DNA of 64,000 nt from Bifidobacterium breve (GTDB taxonomy: Bacteria > Actinomycetota > Acidimicrobiia > Acidimicrobiales > Acidimicrobilacustridaceae). Location: assembly GCA_945878725.1 (NCBI GenBank), contig CAMCTY010000002.1, positions 62,001-126,000 on the forward strand, read 5' to 3'. The translations under genes and the position numbers were made by a program. Under the pieces are notes generated by a model. That model ran no database searches. It was not told the origin of the DNA and was given only the letters and a program-made list of their open reading frames with translations. Shown here piece after piece: positions 42,707 through 53,142 of this stretch (within the stretch, counting starts at the first letter, position 1; every line of letters starts with the position of its first letter).

Positions 42707-45109
42707 TCAGACTGTGTCGTTCCGGCGTTGCAGGATGAAGAGCGTCACTCCAAGGCCGGCCAGAAGCACGACTAGGACAAGAACGATCTCAAGCATCGGG
42801 CCCGAATTGTCGCCGTCGCCGCCAGCGGGCTCAGCAAGTGCCGTGAGCGGTGCTCCGACCTGCGTGGCTTCAAGCACCGGCGTTGCGGCGTCCTTCGCAT
42901 CGCTTGCCTTGTCGACGACCGATGCCGTTACGTTCGGTGCCGTCGCTCCGGAGGTCTCTACGCGCCATGTTCCACCGGCAGGCTGACCCACCAGCACATA
43001 GGAGATGGTGTCGCCTGGTTCGCGGAACACCAGCCATCGAGGATTGAACGGATCGCTCATACTCGACTGTTCGATGCCGGTCACTGAAATCACTGTTCCA
43101 TCGGGACCGGTCACCGTCGCCGAATCACTACCTGCGTTGATGGCAAACGTCACCATCTTCTGACCATCGGCGACGGCAACTTCGAGAGTGCCTGCTCCGC
43201 TCGGACCTTCGGAGTCAGCACCAGCGGCATTGCGCCCGGCCCCCATCTCCGTCGAACCGTTCTCCGCCTTGACGGGTACTTCGTATTCCTTCGAGTTGCA
43301 GTCGCTGTTGCGCAGGCGCCACACCGGTTCGACCCAGTCTTTTGAAAGTCCGAGGCGAACATCGTCGAACCACAGACCCTTGAACACGCCGCAGGCAATG
43401 ACGCCCTTTGTCGAAACGGCCGACGTTCCCGAAAGTTTCACGAGTCCGAGCGAAAGGGTTGCATCACCCCCAAGGCTGAGATCGGTTGCATTCGCCGCTC
43501 CGCGCAGATTGACGCCGATGCCCCATTCCTTTTTGTCATCCAGAAAGAGTTCGCCTTTGCCCGAGATCGATGCAAGACCATCCCAGTAATAGGCGACCGT
43601 CATCGCGCCGACCCGCATTCCCTTGAGTTCCAGATTGCCGATCATGATCTTCCCGATGGTTCCCTCGCCCGCCACCGACAGTTCGTCCGTATCAATCGTG
43701 ATGACGCCGTCGATCGTCGCGACGTTGCCAATGTTGGGGACAAATGGCCCAACGCCGAGTGTCGAGATCGCCTTGATACCGAACGGGTCGAGTTTCAATG
43801 TTCCGCCGAGCGAGTTGATCGACGCGACGCCATAGATATTGAGGGGCAAGCCCTGGACGGTAACTCCAATCTCTTTGAGTTGACCATCCTTGATTACGAC
43901 TGTTCCGCCGAATCCAAGAGCATCAGCACCAGGGCCAAAGAGCACCGTGACTTTGCCAGCCCAGAGATTCTCACCCACGCTGTATTTAAGGTCGACGCCC
44001 TTTAGGCGGACGACCGCGAGATCGATCTCTGGAATCTTGACGTAGAGCTTCTCGAGACGCCCTGCTCCGTTTACGGGCCAGAAGATCCCGAGCTCGCCGT
44101 CGTAACCCTGGAAGACACCGGGAAGTTTGAGCTTGCCGAAGACCGCCATACCCAATGCGCCGTTGCGCTCAACCGGTTCAATCGTGAGCGCCGCTTCGAC
44201 TGTGAGTCCTGCGATCTTTTGGATCAACTGCGTCGGCAGCGACAACGTGTAGGCGGGAATCTTCTGCAATCCAACTTGGTCGAGCGTGAACACAACTTGA
44301 GGCGTGGACAGCGAGGGAACAGCCCCGGCGAGCTGCGCCACAGAATCCTCAGCGACGTCGCTGTAATCGGGAAAGCCGTTCACCGGTTGCTTTGGAAACG
44401 ACGCGACATCTGACAGACCCGGGAGGCGACCGATGGTCGAGGTCTTGATGACATCGCTCTTGATCGGCATCGCCCAATCCGGGGCGGAACTCTGGCTCGG
44501 TGAATACTGGAACGACCAGTCGATCACCCCCTCGTCGACGATCAAGTCGCCTCCGAGGATCGAGCCCACGGCCTGATAGCCAGTCGCTTGGATGTGTGCG
44601 TTCAGGGGATCAAACGTCACTACCGCCTGCGGTGCAACGGGGCGGAACTCCATTCCGCCGACGAACACTTTTTGCGATGACGTCCAGACCAATCCCCTTC
44701 GGGTCAGGCAATCCTCGGGAGCAGAGACCGACATCTCGAATGGCCCCAATCGCACTGAGCTTGCGCAGGGATAAGAAATCCCCTCATCGGGTGGAATCAA
44801 GGGGACAGTAGATGTCGTTGATGTCGATTCATCGGGAGCGTCAATGAGCGTCGTGGTCGACGATGAACTCGAATCGGTTGGTGCGGTTGTGGAAGTCACC
44901 GCCGTTGAAGTCGTCGGAAGTGCGGTTGTCGAAGGGATAACTGTGTCCTCCGGTGCAAAGGTGTTCACGACATCGGTGTCGTCGGTGATACCTGACGCCG
45001 AACGATTGGTGGTCTCGCCGGCACAGGCCGCGAAAAGAACGCCGCAAGCAACCGAGATCACCAGGACCCGAGCCGCGGTTTGTGCCCGATTTTTTACCTT
45101 TGCGTTCAT
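42707..45109 (-). CDS. Large envelope protein with lipobox-like N-terminus and C-terminal TM helix
   Basis: An 800-residue protein of unknown function. It has an N-terminal signal (ARVLVISVACGVLFAACAG; Cys29 could be lipidated), a Ser/Thr-rich region (about 35-105), then a large beta-rich domain with many repeated GVxLxG-like and KVTVLFG-like segments. A disordered stretch (about 615-650), a small domain resembling a pre-peptidase/sandwich fold, and a C-terminal TM helix (MLEIVLVLVVLLAGLGVTLFIL) followed by QRRNDTV complete it. It therefore appears attached to the membrane at its C-terminus with its body outside. No enzyme motif is visible. Confidence 0.78.
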   Translation of the reverse strand: MNAKVKNRAQTAARVLVISVACGVLFAACAGETTNRSASGITDDTDVVNTFAPEDTVIPSTTALPTTSTAVTSTTAPTDSSSSSTTTLIDAPDESTSTTSTVPLIPPDEGISYPCASSVRLGPFEMSVSAPEDCLTRRGLVWTSSQKVFVGGMEFRPVAPQAVVTFDPLNAHIQATGYQAVGSILGGDLIVDEGVIDWSFQYSPSQSSAPDWAMPIKSDVIKTSTIGRLPGLSDVASFPKQPVNGFPDYSDVAEDSVAQLAGAVPSLSTPQVVFTLDQVGLQKIPAYTLSLPTQLIQKIAGLTVEAALTIEPVERNGALGMAVFGKLKLPGVFQGYDGELGIFWPVNGAGRLEKLYVKIPEIDLAVVRLKGVDLKYSVGENLWAGKVTVLFGPGADALGFGGTVVIKDGQLKEIGVTVQGLPLNIYGVASINSLGGTLKLDPFGIKAISTLGVGPFVPNIGNVATIDGVITIDTDELSVAGEGTIGKIMIGNLELKGMRVGAMTVAYYWDGLASISGKGELFLDDKKEWGIGVNLRGAANATDLSLGGDATLSLGLVKLSGTSAVSTKGVIACGVFKGLWFDDVRLGLSKDWVEPVWRLRNSDCNSKEYEVPVKAENGSTEMGAGRNAAGADSEGPSGAGTLEVAVADGQKMVTFAINAGSDSATVTGPDGTVISVTGIEQSSMSDPFNPRWLVFREPGDTISYVLVGQPAGGTWRVETSGATAPNVTASVVDKASDAKDAATPVLEATQVGAPLTALAEPAGGDGDNSGPMLEIVLVLVVLLAGLGVTLFILQRRNDTV

Positions 45110-47864: not shown

Positions 47865-49364
47865 TCAGGCAGTGAGTTCGGCGACCTGCGCCCGAATCCG
47901 ATCCTTCTGGATCTTCCCCATGAGGTTTCGTTCGATCGAGTCGAGAACCACGATCTGTTCGGGGCACTTGAACCGTGCGAGTCCCAATGCCATGCAGTGC
48001 GCTCCCAAGTCATCGACCCCGAGTTCCGTCCCCGGCGCAAGGACCACCACCGCGCACACGCGTTCACCGGTGCGCGTATCGGGCATGCCGACAACTGCGA
48101 CATCGGATACCGAAGGATGCCGGATCACGGCGTCCTCAATCTCGACAGCAGAAATGTTCTCGGCATTGCGGATGATGACGTCTTTCAGTCGTCCGACAAT
48201 GGTGATCCGATCGTCCGTATCGACGGTTGCGAGATCGCCCGTGCGGAACCATCCATCATCGAACGCATTCGCGTCGAGCGCCTGATCGACGTACCCGAGG
48301 AAGCACTGGCCACCGCGCAACTGGAGTTCCCCGTCCACGACGCGAGCCGAAACCCCGGGCGATGCCGGTCCGACCGTCGTTCCTACAAGTCGATCGTCCG
48401 GCCACTCGCACGTTGCCATCGGGAATTCGGTGAGGCCATACGCGCCCACAACTCCAGTGACACCGAACATCTCGATCAGTTCGTCGTTGACCTGCGAAGG
48501 GATCGGTGCGCCACCGCCGACGCAGCCGCGCACATCGGGGAAGAGCGCTCCAGCTCCATGTCGCGTCTGCGCCTCGATAAACGCCCGGAAGAACGGCACC
48601 GCCGATCCGAACATCGTGGGCCTATGCGCAGCCATCCGGTCGGCGGACATCGCCGGGTCGAACGTATCGAAGAGCACCAGCCGCACGCCGGTCTGAAGCG
48701 CGGTGACCATCATTGCGATCCCGCCGATGTGGGTGAACGGCCACGCGATCGGATACACGTCGTTTTCATCGAAGCCCAGGCGCTCGATCATCCCGAGCGC
48801 CGATGCCATGACCGACGAGTCGGAATGCCGTGCTCCTTTGGGAGCCGCCGTCGTGCCCGACGAGAAGTAGATCCAACGGCACTCGTCGACCGACGTCGGC
48901 GGCGAGGGCAGGCGCGCCGGATCCCCGACCGGAAGACGCAAAGCCGTTGTCATGTCGACAGGGCTCTCGTAGTCGAATGCCACAACCTCGAGTCCGAGTT
49001 CCCTGCCCATTGCGGCATGGTCGAAACCTCGCCAAGACTCGGGGACGAGCAGCAGACGGGTCCCCAGTTGCTCGCTTATCAATCCCACCTCGCGATGTCG
49101 CAGCATCGGGATGACGGGATTCTGAACGATCCCGATCCGAGCGCAGGCCATCATCAACACTGCGGCCTCGATGGTCGTCGGCAATTGCCACGAGATGACG
49201 TCCCCTGAAGTCATCCCGAGGTCGAGGAGTCCCGCTGCGACCCGCTCAGCCTCGTTTTTCAGACCCAGTGACGTGAGGGTCCGGCCGTGATCGTCGGCCA
49301 GCAAGACCCGACTGGGATAGTTCTTCGCCGTTTCCTCGACGATGCTCCAAACGCTTCCGCCCAT
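47865..49364 (-). CDS. Acyl-CoA synthetase/AMP-dependent ligase
   Basis: A 499-residue class I adenylate-forming enzyme. The P-loop-like A3 motif YFSSGTTAAPKGARHSD, the A5 region GAYGLTE, A7 WFRTGDLATVD, A8 RLKDVIIRNAENIS, and the A10 Lys in RNLMGKIQKD are present. It activates a carboxylic acid with ATP and transfers it to CoA. The acid is not identifiable; the BVMO gene next in the operon suggests a ketone- or terpenoid-derived substrate. Start ATG at 49364 gives MGGSVWSIVEE. It is divergent from the sulfotransferase fusion gene. Confidence 0.9.
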   Translation of the reverse strand: MGGSVWSIVEETAKNYPSRVLLADDHGRTLTSLGLKNEAERVAAGLLDLGMTSGDVISWQLPTTIEAAVLMMACARIGIVQNPVIPMLRHREVGLISEQLGTRLLLVPESWRGFDHAAMGRELGLEVVAFDYESPVDMTTALRLPVGDPARLPSPPTSVDECRWIYFSSGTTAAPKGARHSDSSVMASALGMIERLGFDENDVYPIAWPFTHIGGIAMMVTALQTGVRLVLFDTFDPAMSADRMAAHRPTMFGSAVPFFRAFIEAQTRHGAGALFPDVRGCVGGGAPIPSQVNDELIEMFGVTGVVGAYGLTEFPMATCEWPDDRLVGTTVGPASPGVSARVVDGELQLRGGQCFLGYVDQALDANAFDDGWFRTGDLATVDTDDRITIVGRLKDVIIRNAENISAVEIEDAVIRHPSVSDVAVVGMPDTRTGERVCAVVVLAPGTELGVDDLGAHCMALGLARFKCPEQIVVLDSIERNLMGKIQKDRIRAQVAELTA

Positions 49365-49488
49365 ACCCCGGAGACTGCCACAGTCGACCCCGTTTCAGGC
49401 CGCTTTCCCCTCGACGCCCTTAATCGGTAAGTATTGAACGAAATTTCTCGGCCCGAACAACAGCATGGGTCAAAACACCGGAGTTGTC

Positions 49489-52400
49489 ATGCATCTCACC
49501 CAACCGTTCGTCATGTTGCCCATCCAGACCGATGTGGCCGCCCTTGTGGCCGAGGTGCTGGCCATTCCCGAAAACGTTTGGCGTCCTCATCCCGAAGGCA
49601 TGCCGGGTAACAGCGCGCTTCCGCTCGTTGCAGTCGGCGGTGACCCTGAGGACGATTCGGTCGAAGGTCCGATGCGCCCGACACCGCATCTCCAAGGCCT
49701 CCCGGCGATCATCAATGTTCTTGCCGGACTCAGCGCTCTCGGTTGCCCAATCGGCCGCACCCGCCTCATGCGGATCGATATCGAGTCCGAAGTGAAGCCA
49801 CACGTCGACACCAATCGCTACTGGTGGGACCACTTGCGCGTCCACATTCCGATCGTCACAAATCCCGCCGTGGAATTCGCGGTCGAAGATTCGACTGTCC
49901 ACATGGCCGCCGGCGAATGCTGGGTGTTCGACACCTGGTCGCGTCACCGGGTAATGAATCCGGTCAACGCGCCTCGAATCCACCTTGTCGTTGACACCGT
50001 CGGTGGCGCTGGCTTCTGGACTCTCATTGACCGCGCGACCGGCGCGATTCCCGCCGACTCGCCGCTTCCCGAACTCGCACACGCCAACAGCATTGCGTTC
50101 GAGACGATGAACCAACCGACTGTCCTCCCGTCATCGGAAATCGATGCGACGCTCGGCTCGATTCTGCGCGACTACGCCGAGAGCGACCTCGACGCGGCCG
50201 TCGAACTCGATTCGAGACTCATTCCGTTCCGCCGTTCCTGGAAAGCGTGCTGGGCTCATTACGGAGACAGCCCCACCGGCTTCCCCGCGTTTTCACAATT
50301 GCGTGACGACGCCCTCGCCATCGTCGCCTCGTCCACAGCAACCCTTGCCAACGGTGTCGAAGTAGCCGAGGCCATTCGCCAACTTGTCATCCGCCCCGGA
50401 CTCTCCAATCGCGCCGTGGCCAGCATCGGCGCCGTGCCGCCGGTGGCACCAACGGCACCAACGGCTCCAACGGCAACTGCCGCAACTGCTGCGCCCGCCG
50501 CGGCGCCGGCACCTGGACCGCTTGTCGCTTCGCAGCCGCAGGGAGAAGCGGCCGCGACGCTCGACGCCGCTCCAGCCGCCCCCGGCGTACCAGCATCACC
50601 AGCGCGCCGAGTCCCACCTGAACCGATCATCCTTGATCGTCCCGTCTTCATTGTCTCGTCGCCGCGCGCCGGCAGCACCATGTTGTTCGAAGCGCTCGGA
50701 CGAGCGAAAGAAGCACTCACGATCGGCAGCGAGAGCCACCAGATCTTCGAGAACATCCAGCCTCTTCGGCCTTCGACTCGCGGCTGGGATTCCAACCGCC
50801 TGACCGCCGAGGACGTCACACCGGGCGTCGTGAACGAACTCAGTTCCGCCTTTGTGCACCGCCTCAAGGACCGAGAAGGCAACCCTGTCACTCCTGGTTC
50901 CGTCGTGCGCATGATTGAAAAGACGCCGAAGAACGCTCTTCGAATTCCTTTCCTCGCCGCCGCCTATCCCGATGCGAAGTTCGTGTACCTGTTCCGCGAT
51001 CCACGCGAGACGGTGAGCAGCATGCTCGATGCATGGCGCTCTGCGAGGTTCGTCACCTATCCCGACCTTCCCGAATGGACGGGTGATCGCTGGTCGCTCC
51101 TCCTCACACCGGGATGGCGCGATCTCATCGGAAAGTCGATTCCCGAGGTCGTCGCCACCCAGTGGGCGGTCACTACCTCGACGTTGCTGGACGATCTCGA
51201 GGCTCTTGAGGCGGATCGCTGGTGCGTTGCCAGCTACGCCGCTCTCGTCGCCGATCCCGACGCCGAACTCACTCGCATCTGCTCGAACCTTGATCTCACG
51301 TGGGATCACAACACCGAGGGAGCGCTGCCGAACTCGGCGACAACTCTTGAAGCTCCTCGGGCCTCGAAGTGGGAACGCAACGCTGAAGAACTGCGCAAGG
51401 TTTGGGGCATCGTTGATTCCGTCGCGGTGCGGGCCCACGATGTATTCGCCGAGCCGCCCACCATCACCCCGACTCGCACCCGATCGGCCGAAGCCGTCTC
51501 TGTCAGTCTCACCCACGAACCCGATGGAAACATCCCCACCGATTTCTCGAGCGTGTTCACCGGTTCGTTTGGCGCCATCCTGCAGGCCGCGAATGTTTCG
51601 CTCGCAGCTACGACCTATCAAAGCGGACGCCTTGTGCTCGTCCGCCGCGACGGCGACAAGGTCAACACCCACCTTCGTTTCTTTCCAAGCCCGATGGGAG
51701 TTGCCGTTCAGGGTTCCAAACTGGCGCTCGGCACCAAGACCACCGTGTGGGAGTTCTGGAACCAACAGGCGGCCGCGAAAACTATCGATCCCGAAGGCAA
51801 GGTTGACGCCTGCTACATGCCCCGCCGCGGCCACGTCACCGGCGATGTCCGCATTCACGATCTCGCCTATGACAGCGAGGGCGAGCTCTGGGCCGTGGCC
51901 ACCCGTTTCTCCTGCCTCGTCAAGTTCGATCGCGAGTACAGCTTCACGCCGCGCTGGCGGCCGCCGTTCATCTCGGGTCTCGCTGCCGATGACCGCTGCC
52001 ATCTCAACGGTATGGCCATGGTCGAAGGCAAGCCCCGTTACGTCACCGTGCTCGGCCTCACCGACACTCCCAACGGTTGGCGCGACGACAAGGCCGCCGG
52101 CGGTGCGATCCTCGATATTGAGGGTGGCGCTCCGGTAACAGTCGGACTTTCGATGCCACATTCACCGCGTTGGTACGACGGGAAACTCTGGGTCCTCGAA
52201 TCGGGCCGCGGCGCACTGTGCACTGTCGACGTCGAGACCGGTCAGGTCGAAACCGTCGCCATCCTCCCGGGTTTCACGCGCGGTATGTCCTTCGTGGGCC
52301 AGTACGCGTTCATTGGTCTTTCAAAGGTCCGCGAGACCGTTTTCGACGGACTCCCCATCACACAGACCGACACTCCCCGTGAGTGCGGCGTCTGGGCCGT

Positions 52401-52596
52401 CGACATCCGTACGGGCGAGATCGCCGGGTTCCTCCGCTTCGAGGGAACCGTCTCCGAACTGTTCGAGGTCGCGATCCTTCCTGGCCAGCAGTTCCCCGAA
52501 CTCGTGGAACCCGGTGCCGAAGCAACCAACGACGCGTTCGTACTCTCTGACGAAGCACTCGCCGACGTCGTGAAGACCGACGAACCGGCGAAGTAA
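49489..52596 (+). CDS. Three-domain fusion: Asp/Asn hydroxylase-like, sulfotransferase, TIGR03032
   Basis: A 1035-residue protein. Residues about 1-200 match the aspartyl/asparaginyl beta-hydroxylase family (cupin-like 2-oxoglutarate/Fe oxygenase) with HVD at His105-Asp107 and distal His153 (SRHR). A 60-residue Ala/Pro/Thr-rich linker (about 312-375) leads to a sulfotransferase domain (about 378-640) with the PAPS loop FIVSSPRAGSTML and the 3'-phosphate motif FVYLFRDPRETVSSML. The C-terminal approximately 350 residues match TIGR03032 (DUF4915), a probable beta-propeller. ATG 49489 follows CCGGAG; an ATG at 49465 is also possible. Hydroxylation and sulfation of one target is inferred. Confidence 0.85.
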   Translation: MHLTQPFVMLPIQTDVAALVAEVLAIPENVWRPHPEGMPGNSALPLVAVGGDPEDDSVEGPMRPTPHLQGLPAIINVLAGLSALGCPIGRTRLMRIDIESEVKPHVDTNRYWWDHLRVHIPIVTNPAVEFAVEDSTVHMAAGECWVFDTWSRHRVMNPVNAPRIHLVVDTVGGAGFWTLIDRATGAIPADSPLPELAHANSIAFETMNQPTVLPSSEIDATLGSILRDYAESDLDAAVELDSRLIPFRRSWKACWAHYGDSPTGFPAFSQLRDDALAIVASSTATLANGVEVAEAIRQLVIRPGLSNRAVASIGAVPPVAPTAPTAPTATAATAAPAAAPAPGPLVASQPQGEAAATLDAAPAAPGVPASPARRVPPEPIILDRPVFIVSSPRAGSTMLFEALGRAKEALTIGSESHQIFENIQPLRPSTRGWDSNRLTAEDVTPGVVNELSSAFVHRLKDREGNPVTPGSVVRMIEKTPKNALRIPFLAAAYPDAKFVYLFRDPRETVSSMLDAWRSARFVTYPDLPEWTGDRWSLLLTPGWRDLIGKSIPEVVATQWAVTTSTLLDDLEALEADRWCVASYAALVADPDAELTRICSNLDLTWDHNTEGALPNSATTLEAPRASKWERNAEELRKVWGIVDSVAVRAHDVFAEPPTITPTRTRSAEAVSVSLTHEPDGNIPTDFSSVFTGSFGAILQAANVSLAATTYQSGRLVLVRRDGDKVNTHLRFFPSPMGVAVQGSKLALGTKTTVWEFWNQQAAAKTIDPEGKVDACYMPRRGHVTGDVRIHDLAYDSEGELWAVATRFSCLVKFDREYSFTPRWRPPFISGLAADDRCHLNGMAMVEGKPRYVTVLGLTDTPNGWRDDKAAGGAILDIEGGAPVTVGLSMPHSPRWYDGKLWVLESGRGALCTVDVETGQVETVAILPGFTRGMSFVGQYAFIGLSKVRETVFDGLPITQTDTPRECGVWAVDIRTGEIAGFLRFEGTVSELFEVAILPGQQFPELVEPGAEATNDAFVLSDEALADVVKTDEPAK

Positions 52597-52635: not shown

Positions 52636-53142
52636 TCAGTCTTCGGCCAGAACCTTGTCGACGCGGTCGCCCGCTTCTTCCATCGTCACGTTCCAAGAAA
52701 CCGAAAGTTCGGAAACGAGAATTCGACGCGCCCGGATCTGCATCGCCTTCTCAGCGCTCGAGAGCGATGACTGACGATCGCGAAGCGCAAGGTTGCGAAC
52801 AACTTCGGCGCATTCGTAGATGTCGCCTGACTTCATCTTTTCCTGATGGTTCTTGAAGCGGCGGGACCAGTTGGTCGGAACACGAACGTTGCGAACCGCA
52901 AGAACGGCGAGCACGTCGTCGACTTCCTCGAGCGAAATGGCGGGACGTACGCCGAGGTCCTCGGCCCGATCTTCGGGAACGGAAACCTTCAGTGCACCAC
53001 CGCGCCAAGACTCATCACCTGCGGCAACCGACAACTCGAGGTATTTCACCTTCTTGCCATCGACAACACGGGTAGCGCGGCCAGTGACCTCGGCAGTGCC
53101 GTGAGCGGGATAAATGACCTTGGAACCAACAGTGAACTTCAT
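52636..53142 (-). CDS. carD: CarD-family RNA polymerase-binding regulator
   Basis: A 168-residue CarD protein. The N-terminal Tudor-like RNAP-interaction domain (about 1-60) starts FTVGSKVIYPAHGTAEV, and the helical DNA-binding domain includes VPTNWSRRFKNHQEKM. CarD stabilises the open complex at rRNA and other promoters and is essential in mycobacteria. AGGAAGG lies upstream of the ATG. In mycobacteria ispD follows carD; here it is followed by the convergent fusion gene instead. Confidence 0.93.
   Translation of the reverse strand: MKFTVGSKVIYPAHGTAEVTGRATRVVDGKKVKYLELSVAAGDESWRGGALKVSVPEDRAEDLGVRPAISLEEVDDVLAVLAVRNVRVPTNWSRRFKNHQEKMKSGDIYECAEVVRNLALRDRQSSLSSAEKAMQIRARRILVSELSVSWNVTMEEAGDRVDKVLAED

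Follow-up and report, generated by a model that had tools for sequence, protein, structure and literature searches.

The 64-kb stretch of DNA analysed here (the window) carries, on its forward strand at 49489..52596, a gene that is open from ATG to stop and encodes 1035 aa, in which a PF05118 oxygenase (H), a Sulfotransfer_3 sulfotransferase (S) and a TIGR03032/DUF4915 propeller (P) are joined in one chain, termed H-S-P. An alternative in-frame ATG upstream, at 49465, would give a protein of 1043 aa, but homologues begin with M-x-L at 49489. The domains were recognized by Pfam as PF05118 (residues 67-170, 58 bits, cutoff 22.6), PF13469 Sulfotransfer_3 (385-606, 87 bits, cutoff 27) and PF16261 DUF4915 (694-1005, 413 bits), and by NCBIfam as TIGR03032 (691-1016, 407 bits, trusted cutoff 251.5, covering profile positions 6-332 of 335). 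Between H and S lies an Ala/Pro-rich linker (residues 316-378; 50434..50622), which is predicted to be disordered (pLDDT about 27) and varies in length among homologues, and between S and P a second, short linker (residues 656-684; 51454..51540), with pLDDT <50 at 661-684. Profile matches and disorder prediction therefore agree with the first-pass annotation of this DNA, made from the letters alone, which had described an oxygenase, a sulfotransferase and a TIGR03032 propeller in a single 1035-residue chain connected by an Ala/Pro linker. In the full-length AlphaFold2 (AF2) model (pLDDT 79.7, pTM 0.42) each domain is well modelled, and the inter-domain arrangement is not interpretable.

The fusion gene forms a single-gene unit. 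An AMP-binding acyl-CoA ligase-like gene (47865..49364, reverse strand) diverges from it and a gene for a CarD-like transcription regulator (52636..53142, reverse strand) converges on it; both are syntenic in relatives, the former is not thought to belong to the system and the latter is not part of it. An operon partner within the window was rejected, given that the flanking genes are divergent or convergent and their order is kept in relatives, and a promoter and terminator scan gave nothing informative. Three genes from the fusion, the reverse strand (42707-45109) encodes an exported protein of 800 aa with a lipoprotein-like signal, a Ser/Thr-rich linker and a C-terminal transmembrane helix.

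The H module, which like S and P is encoded on the forward strand, spans about 315 aa and consists of an oxygenase core with the double-stranded beta-helix (DSBH) fold (residues 1-172; 49489..50004), as supported by PF05118, the AF2 model, conserved residues and the alignment with 4p7w, followed by a C-terminal helical part (residues 173-315; 50005..50433) that appears as helices in the model and is also conserved in H-only proteins from Lysobacter and others. Folded alone by AF2, it gave pLDDT 91.3 and pTM 0.86. Across 15 homologues, the putative iron ligands H105 (49801-49803), D107 (49807-49809) and H153 (49945-49947), the predicted 2-oxoglutarate (2OG) residues H119 and R163, the candidate carboxylate-binding residues R92, R95 and R117, and also R90, are all invariant. 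Membership of the PF05118 superfamily is thus borne out by the profile score together with the HxD..H..R residues. The two-His iron site of AspH, consisting of His679 and His725 only (PMC6817910), is not what H possesses, since the acidic residue D107 is invariant.

A fold search with the H model ended in a near tie among a nucleoside-antibiotic beta-hydroxylase (7v4m, Z 16.9), L-proline cis-4-hydroxylase (4p7x, 15.8), proline 3-hydroxylase (1e5r, 15.2) and human AspH (15.2), and the nearest relatives in sequence are L-proline cis-4-hydroxylase (4p7w) and proline 3-hydroxylase (1e5r), at 20-23% identity. For this reason the earlier label of H as Asp/Asn hydroxylase-like holds as far as the PF05118 match goes, but is to be read as the name of a Pfam family only. 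In a modelled cis-P3H, iron is held by H107/D109/H158 and the substrate carboxylate by R95/R97/R122 (PMC9968057), while in AspH Arg688 of the R-x-H motif holds the carboxylate of a peptidyl Asp (PMC6817910). The R117-x-H119 motif of H fits both, and it is therefore likely, judging from these residues, that a substrate carboxylate comes close to the reaction site. Given the behaviour of Arg688 in AspH, R117 does not separate a peptidyl substrate from a free amino acid.

The S module (PF13469; residues 380-655; 50626..51453) has the features of a PAPS-dependent sulfotransferase, and its assignment to Sulfotransfer_3 follows from a score of 87 bits against 27 and from the presence of both PAPS motifs: the 5'-PSB SSPRAGST (P392, R393, G395, S396, T397) and the 3'-PB RDPRE..SSM (R503, S511). 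PRxGST, R503 and S511, as well as the ESH (415-417) and EKTPKN (477-482) motifs, are invariant among seven H-S proteins. Its closest solved relatives are the tyrosylprotein sulfotransferases TPST1/2 and the sulfotransferase (ST) domain of CurM, a likeness that we take as one of sequence and fold proximity.

The P module (residues 685-1016; 51541..52536) is a beta-propeller according to PF16261, TIGR03032 and the AF2 model. Twelve of its residues are invariant across 35 diverse TIGR03032 sequences, namely, Y710, Q711, H790, D835, C837, H838, N840, H891, R894, R931, R948 and E990. In the AF2 model, with positions taken from DSSP order and not from coordinates, the innermost strands of successive blades begin at or close to H790, H838, H891 and R931, and these residues would therefore surround the mouth of the channel. 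Such an invariant His/Arg ring resembles a site for a ligand, a metal or catalysis, and so P may be more than an adaptor. Its best fold matches are nidogen, LRP6 and similar propellers (Z 22-24), and they also include ASST and virginiamycin B lyase, propellers with catalytic channels. Elsewhere TIGR03032 is fused to other transferases, of the OGT-type GT41, GT9-like and GNAT families, which fits a module common to several modifications. On cyanobacterial plasmids such fusions (L040 8911-13449; L043 8950-14628; L038 8947-11058; L039 8971-10965; L032 9944-12187) combine TIGR03032 with GT41 and TPRs, with GNAT, or with TPR plus a GT9-like domain, and giant repeat proteins adjoin them where the record allows. 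The literature searched contained no mention of TIGR03032, DUF4915 or choice-of-anchor Q.

The three-domain protein recurs. In a genome scan, at least seven MAGs of freshwater Acidimicrobiia (L005, L006, L007, L008, L009, L010, L014) proved to carry it in full, at 73-92% identity; copies in L012, L013 and L015 are contig-edge fragments, and in L011 (8001-11036) the fusion ORF is broken by a stop codon around 9430, probably an assembly error or a pseudogene. It occurs also in two other actinobacterial genera, from another family of the same order (G024, G142), and in a planctomycete-group genome (G410), where a complete H-S-P of 1135 aa has Ala/Pro-rich linkers. Since related MAGs and distant genomes carry the same ORF intact, a frame or assembly artefact was ruled out and the fusion is genuine. 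Other arrangements of the same parts include a split form on a Diaphorobacter plasmid, in which the genes for H-S and for TIGR03032 share 4 bp; S-P fusions that lack H (G003, G907); H-S fusions that lack P (Pseudoxanthomonas, SZAS-71, Wenzhouxiangella, G513, G787, G502); and, in cyanobacteria and planctomycetes, P on its own or combined with TPRs. In the S and P trees the window protein groups with its MAG relatives, and in the P tree the S-P proteins of G003 and G907 come next. The first-pass annotation had stated that its reading would fall if homologues lost the HxD..H or PAPS motifs, or if the domains never occurred together elsewhere. Neither is the case, because both sets of motifs are kept invariant and the domains co-occur, fused as well as in adjacent genes.

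H is also found as a separate gene adjoining TPR-sulfotransferases and/or TonB receptors (L145, L146, L026), and an H-S locus of Asticcacaulis comes after genes for a TonB receptor, a sulfotransferase, an Asp_Arg_Hydrox protein and a TPR-sulfotransferase. These proteobacterial loci, where PF05118 hydroxylase genes accompany TPR-sulfotransferases and/or TonB-dependent receptors (L145 9303-15270; L026 5000-8990; L030 5923-13791; L146 9508-12993), possibly represent a related system for receptors.

The genes that surround these proteins suggest secreted beta-helix proteins as partners. Outside the window's genus, all three H-S-P loci have a choice-of-anchor-Q neighbour: in G142 the fusion lies 97 bp upstream of a 1223-aa protein of this type on the same strand, in G024 the domain is found about 2.4 kb downstream, and in G410 the fusion is divergent from two such proteins. 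Both S-P loci (G003, G907) adjoin choice-of-anchor-Q/beta-helix proteins; the split pair of Diaphorobacter is divergent from an IPTL-CTERM/choice-of-anchor-Q/PMP-repeat protein, and the H-S gene of Wenzhouxiangella from a choice-of-anchor-Q and IPTL-CTERM protein. The genome of the window itself has, on contig 12, a pair of solo TIGR03032 genes flanked by two choice-of-anchor-Q beta-helix proteins and a Thr-rich protein with an LPxTG-like tail. One copy of this tandem pair (L079 3106-4500) keeps the CHLNG and PHSPR histidine motifs; the other (L079 2048-3142) has SPITG and MPYTPR instead, and because of this loss it looks degenerate or regulatory. Families were too diverse for a simple Pfam enrichment count of immediate against distal neighbours, and the NCBIfam domain choice_anch_Q (NF041518) proved a useful marker, being present in neighbours of the H-S-P, H-S, split H-S and P, S-P and P-only forms, the last in the window's own genome and in G471. 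The H-S-P locus of the window and its syntenic relatives has no beta-helix neighbour, and its clients would therefore be encoded in trans. An adjoining beta-helix protein is likewise lacking for most H-S proteins that have no P (Pseudoxanthomonas, G787, G502, SZAS-71), which argues that the association follows P.

When counted by genome, with adjacency defined as within 6 kb, a P-bearing gene stands beside a choice-of-anchor-Q protein in 8 of the 13 genomes that have both, against about 0.5-0.55 expected, in a genome list partly chosen after some neighbourhoods had been seen and leaving out the TIGR03032 carriers G333, G337, G369, G429 and G464. The nominal P = 9e-9 of this post hoc test is indicative only and overstates the certainty. 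In 15 plasmid records, most TIGR03032 genes lie at most two genes from an autotransporter, cadherin-like, FG-GAP, VCBS or choice-of-anchor-Q protein, as follows: choice-of-anchor Q in Planctomyces and Synechocystis; IPTL-CTERM in Diaphorobacter; autotransporters in Phyllobacterium, three Novosphingobium and Loktanella; and cadherin-like, Ig-like, FG-GAP and VCBS proteins in cyanobacteria. Qingshengfaniella clearly departs from this pattern, and one of the Nostoc loci sits at the end of its record. On two Nostoc plasmids cysC, for the adenylyl-sulfate kinase of PAPS supply, adjoins TIGR03032 (L037 7823-8329; L040 17314-17862), which suggests a local supply of PAPS, though no sulfotransferase is annotated there. 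Elsewhere, a planctomycete-group TIGR03032 gene (L126 3867-6865) lies directly 3' of a gene resembling secA, HlyD-type secretion proteins are encoded close by, and divergent relatives (L134 7170-10081; L083 10196-12134) are clustered with a GT2-like glycosyltransferase and not beside surface proteins, the L134 cluster also holding a sulfotransferase-like gene.

With moderate confidence, we propose that H-S-P works in the cytosol, where it would hydroxylate and sulfate beta-helix surface proteins bound for secretion, and that P recruits these clients. The proposal builds on the domain content, the conserved catalytic residues, the fused and split architectures and the genomic partnership with secreted beta-helix proteins; from these we infer that the client is the substrate, which residue is modified, in what order the steps follow, and that P is the recruiter. 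Before or during export, P would bring the enzyme to parallel beta-helix clients, such as choice-of-anchor-Q and similar repeat proteins. H, using Fe(II), O2 and 2-oxoglutarate, would hydroxylate a side chain near a carboxylate, by Asp-, Asn- or Pro-like chemistry, and S would transfer sulfate from PAPS to that client as well, onto the hydroxyl that H has introduced or onto one already present on Tyr, Ser or Thr. The earlier idea of protein modification with the propeller near its target is thus backed by the gene neighbourhoods, with the qualification that P is perhaps not a binding module only.

Two narrower forms of this proposal differ in what S acts upon. In one, which we regard as rather unlikely, H makes beta-hydroxy-Asp/Asn or hydroxyproline, and the hydroxyl so formed is the one that S sulfates. 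Fusion of H and S without P in Pseudomonadota is in keeping with it, as are H and sulfotransferase in adjoining genes (H with a TPR-sulfotransferase in L145 and L146, Asp_Arg_Hydrox with a TPR-sulfotransferase in L030). Yet S does not require H, since the S-P fusions of G003 and G907 sit beside the same type of client, and tyrosylprotein sulfotransferase and CurM, to which S comes closest, are not known to act on acceptors made by a neighbouring 2OG oxygenase. Sulfation of the new hydroxyl as a single pathway, as first suggested, is therefore not established. The S-P forms and the TPST-like character of S speak for the other form, in which the two activities address separate sites, H hydroxylating, for instance, Asp, Asn or Pro and S making sulfotyrosine on the same client in the manner of RaxST on RaxX, and Tyr does occur within the repeats of the Diaphorobacter, Wenzhouxiangella and actinobacterial clients. 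Nothing in client composition tracks H or S, however, and no pattern in Pro, Tyr, Asp or Asn tells H-bearing from H-less systems; this specific form is also unlikely.

An enzyme of small molecules, with a free amino acid as the substrate of H and the hydroxylated product as that of S, with a catalytic or sensory P and with surface-protein neighbours that are incidental, would account for the likeness of H to free-amino-acid enzymes in sequence (L-proline cis-4-hydroxylase, proline 3-hydroxylase) and to a nucleoside-antibiotic beta-hydroxylase in fold, and for its invariant Arg residues of the type that holds a substrate carboxylate. We consider it improbable, because across unrelated phyla P-bearing forms adjoin secreted beta-helix proteins much more often than expected by chance, and no biosynthetic cluster surrounds the copies examined; moreover, AspH has an Arg at the R117 position (Arg688; PMC6817910), where it holds the carboxylate of a peptidyl Asp. 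Compatible with our proposal, and also rather unlikely, is that P is itself an enzyme with a metal or ligand site in its channel, making H-S-P a three-step enzyme. The invariance of H790, H838, H891 and R931 at or near the starts of the innermost strands, together with that of Y710, D835, C837, R894, R948 and E990, and the catalytic-channel propellers among the fold matches speak for this, whereas the non-enzymatic LRP6 and nidogen propellers match with higher scores, one member of the tandem pair on contig 12 is retained without these residues, and the positions were read from DSSP order.

It is tempting to speculate further, as a quite doubtful extension, that TIGR03032 is the common centre of a bacterial system not yet described, whose cytosolic modification domains are exchangeable (2OG hydroxylase, sulfotransferase, O-GlcNAc-transferase-like, GT9-like or acetyltransferase) and act on giant secreted proteins of the beta-helix and adhesin types. 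The window gene would be its version with hydroxylase and sulfotransferase, and would place an O-sulfated beta-hydroxy amino acid in surface proteins, a modification that is not known from bacteria. Hydroxylated and sulfated surface proteins are known mainly from eukaryotic secretory pathways; if our proposal is true, a single polypeptide provides bacteria with this chemistry. TIGR03032/DUF4915, a family without a function in the literature searched, would gain a testable role in modifying the very large beta-helix proteins that planctomycetes, cyanobacteria, proteobacteria and freshwater actinobacteria secrete, and the client genes that adjoin P-bearing genes would provide ready substrates for assays.

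Among known systems, human AspH combines TPRs with a PF05118 oxygenase and hydroxylates Asp/Asn in EGF-like domains of secreted proteins. It shares with H-S-P the PF05118 DSBH fold (Z about 15), the R-x-H motif and a distal Arg for 2OG, and, with H-S-P as proposed, a separate repeat domain for substrate recognition and secreted repeat proteins as targets. The two differ in the iron site (two His in AspH, PMC6817910, against HxD..H) and in the recognition domain (TPR against propeller), and H-S-P adds a sulfotransferase and is bacterial, with no ER. L-proline cis-4-hydroxylase and proline 3-hydroxylase (4p7w, 1e5r) have a similar HxD..H..R and Arg pattern, but they are single-function enzymes of free amino acids, with 20-23% identity to H. 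TPST1/2 and the ST domain of CurM, the closest solved relatives of S, share its PAPS motifs, TPST being a eukaryotic Golgi enzyme and the CurM domain part of a polyketide synthase. In Xanthomonas, RaxST uses PAPS to make sulfotyrosine on RaxX. This bacterial sulfotransferase modifies an exported ribosomal product (PMC6637879), and by description it is set apart from H-S-P in that RaxX is a short peptide and RaxST has neither hydroxylase nor propeller. Finally, the cyanobacterial fusions of TIGR03032 with TPR-GT41 (OGT), GT9-like or GNAT domains use glycosyl or acyl chemistry in chains without H or S, and have in common with H-S-P the same propeller fused with, or next to, transferases, with giant secreted repeat proteins adjoining.
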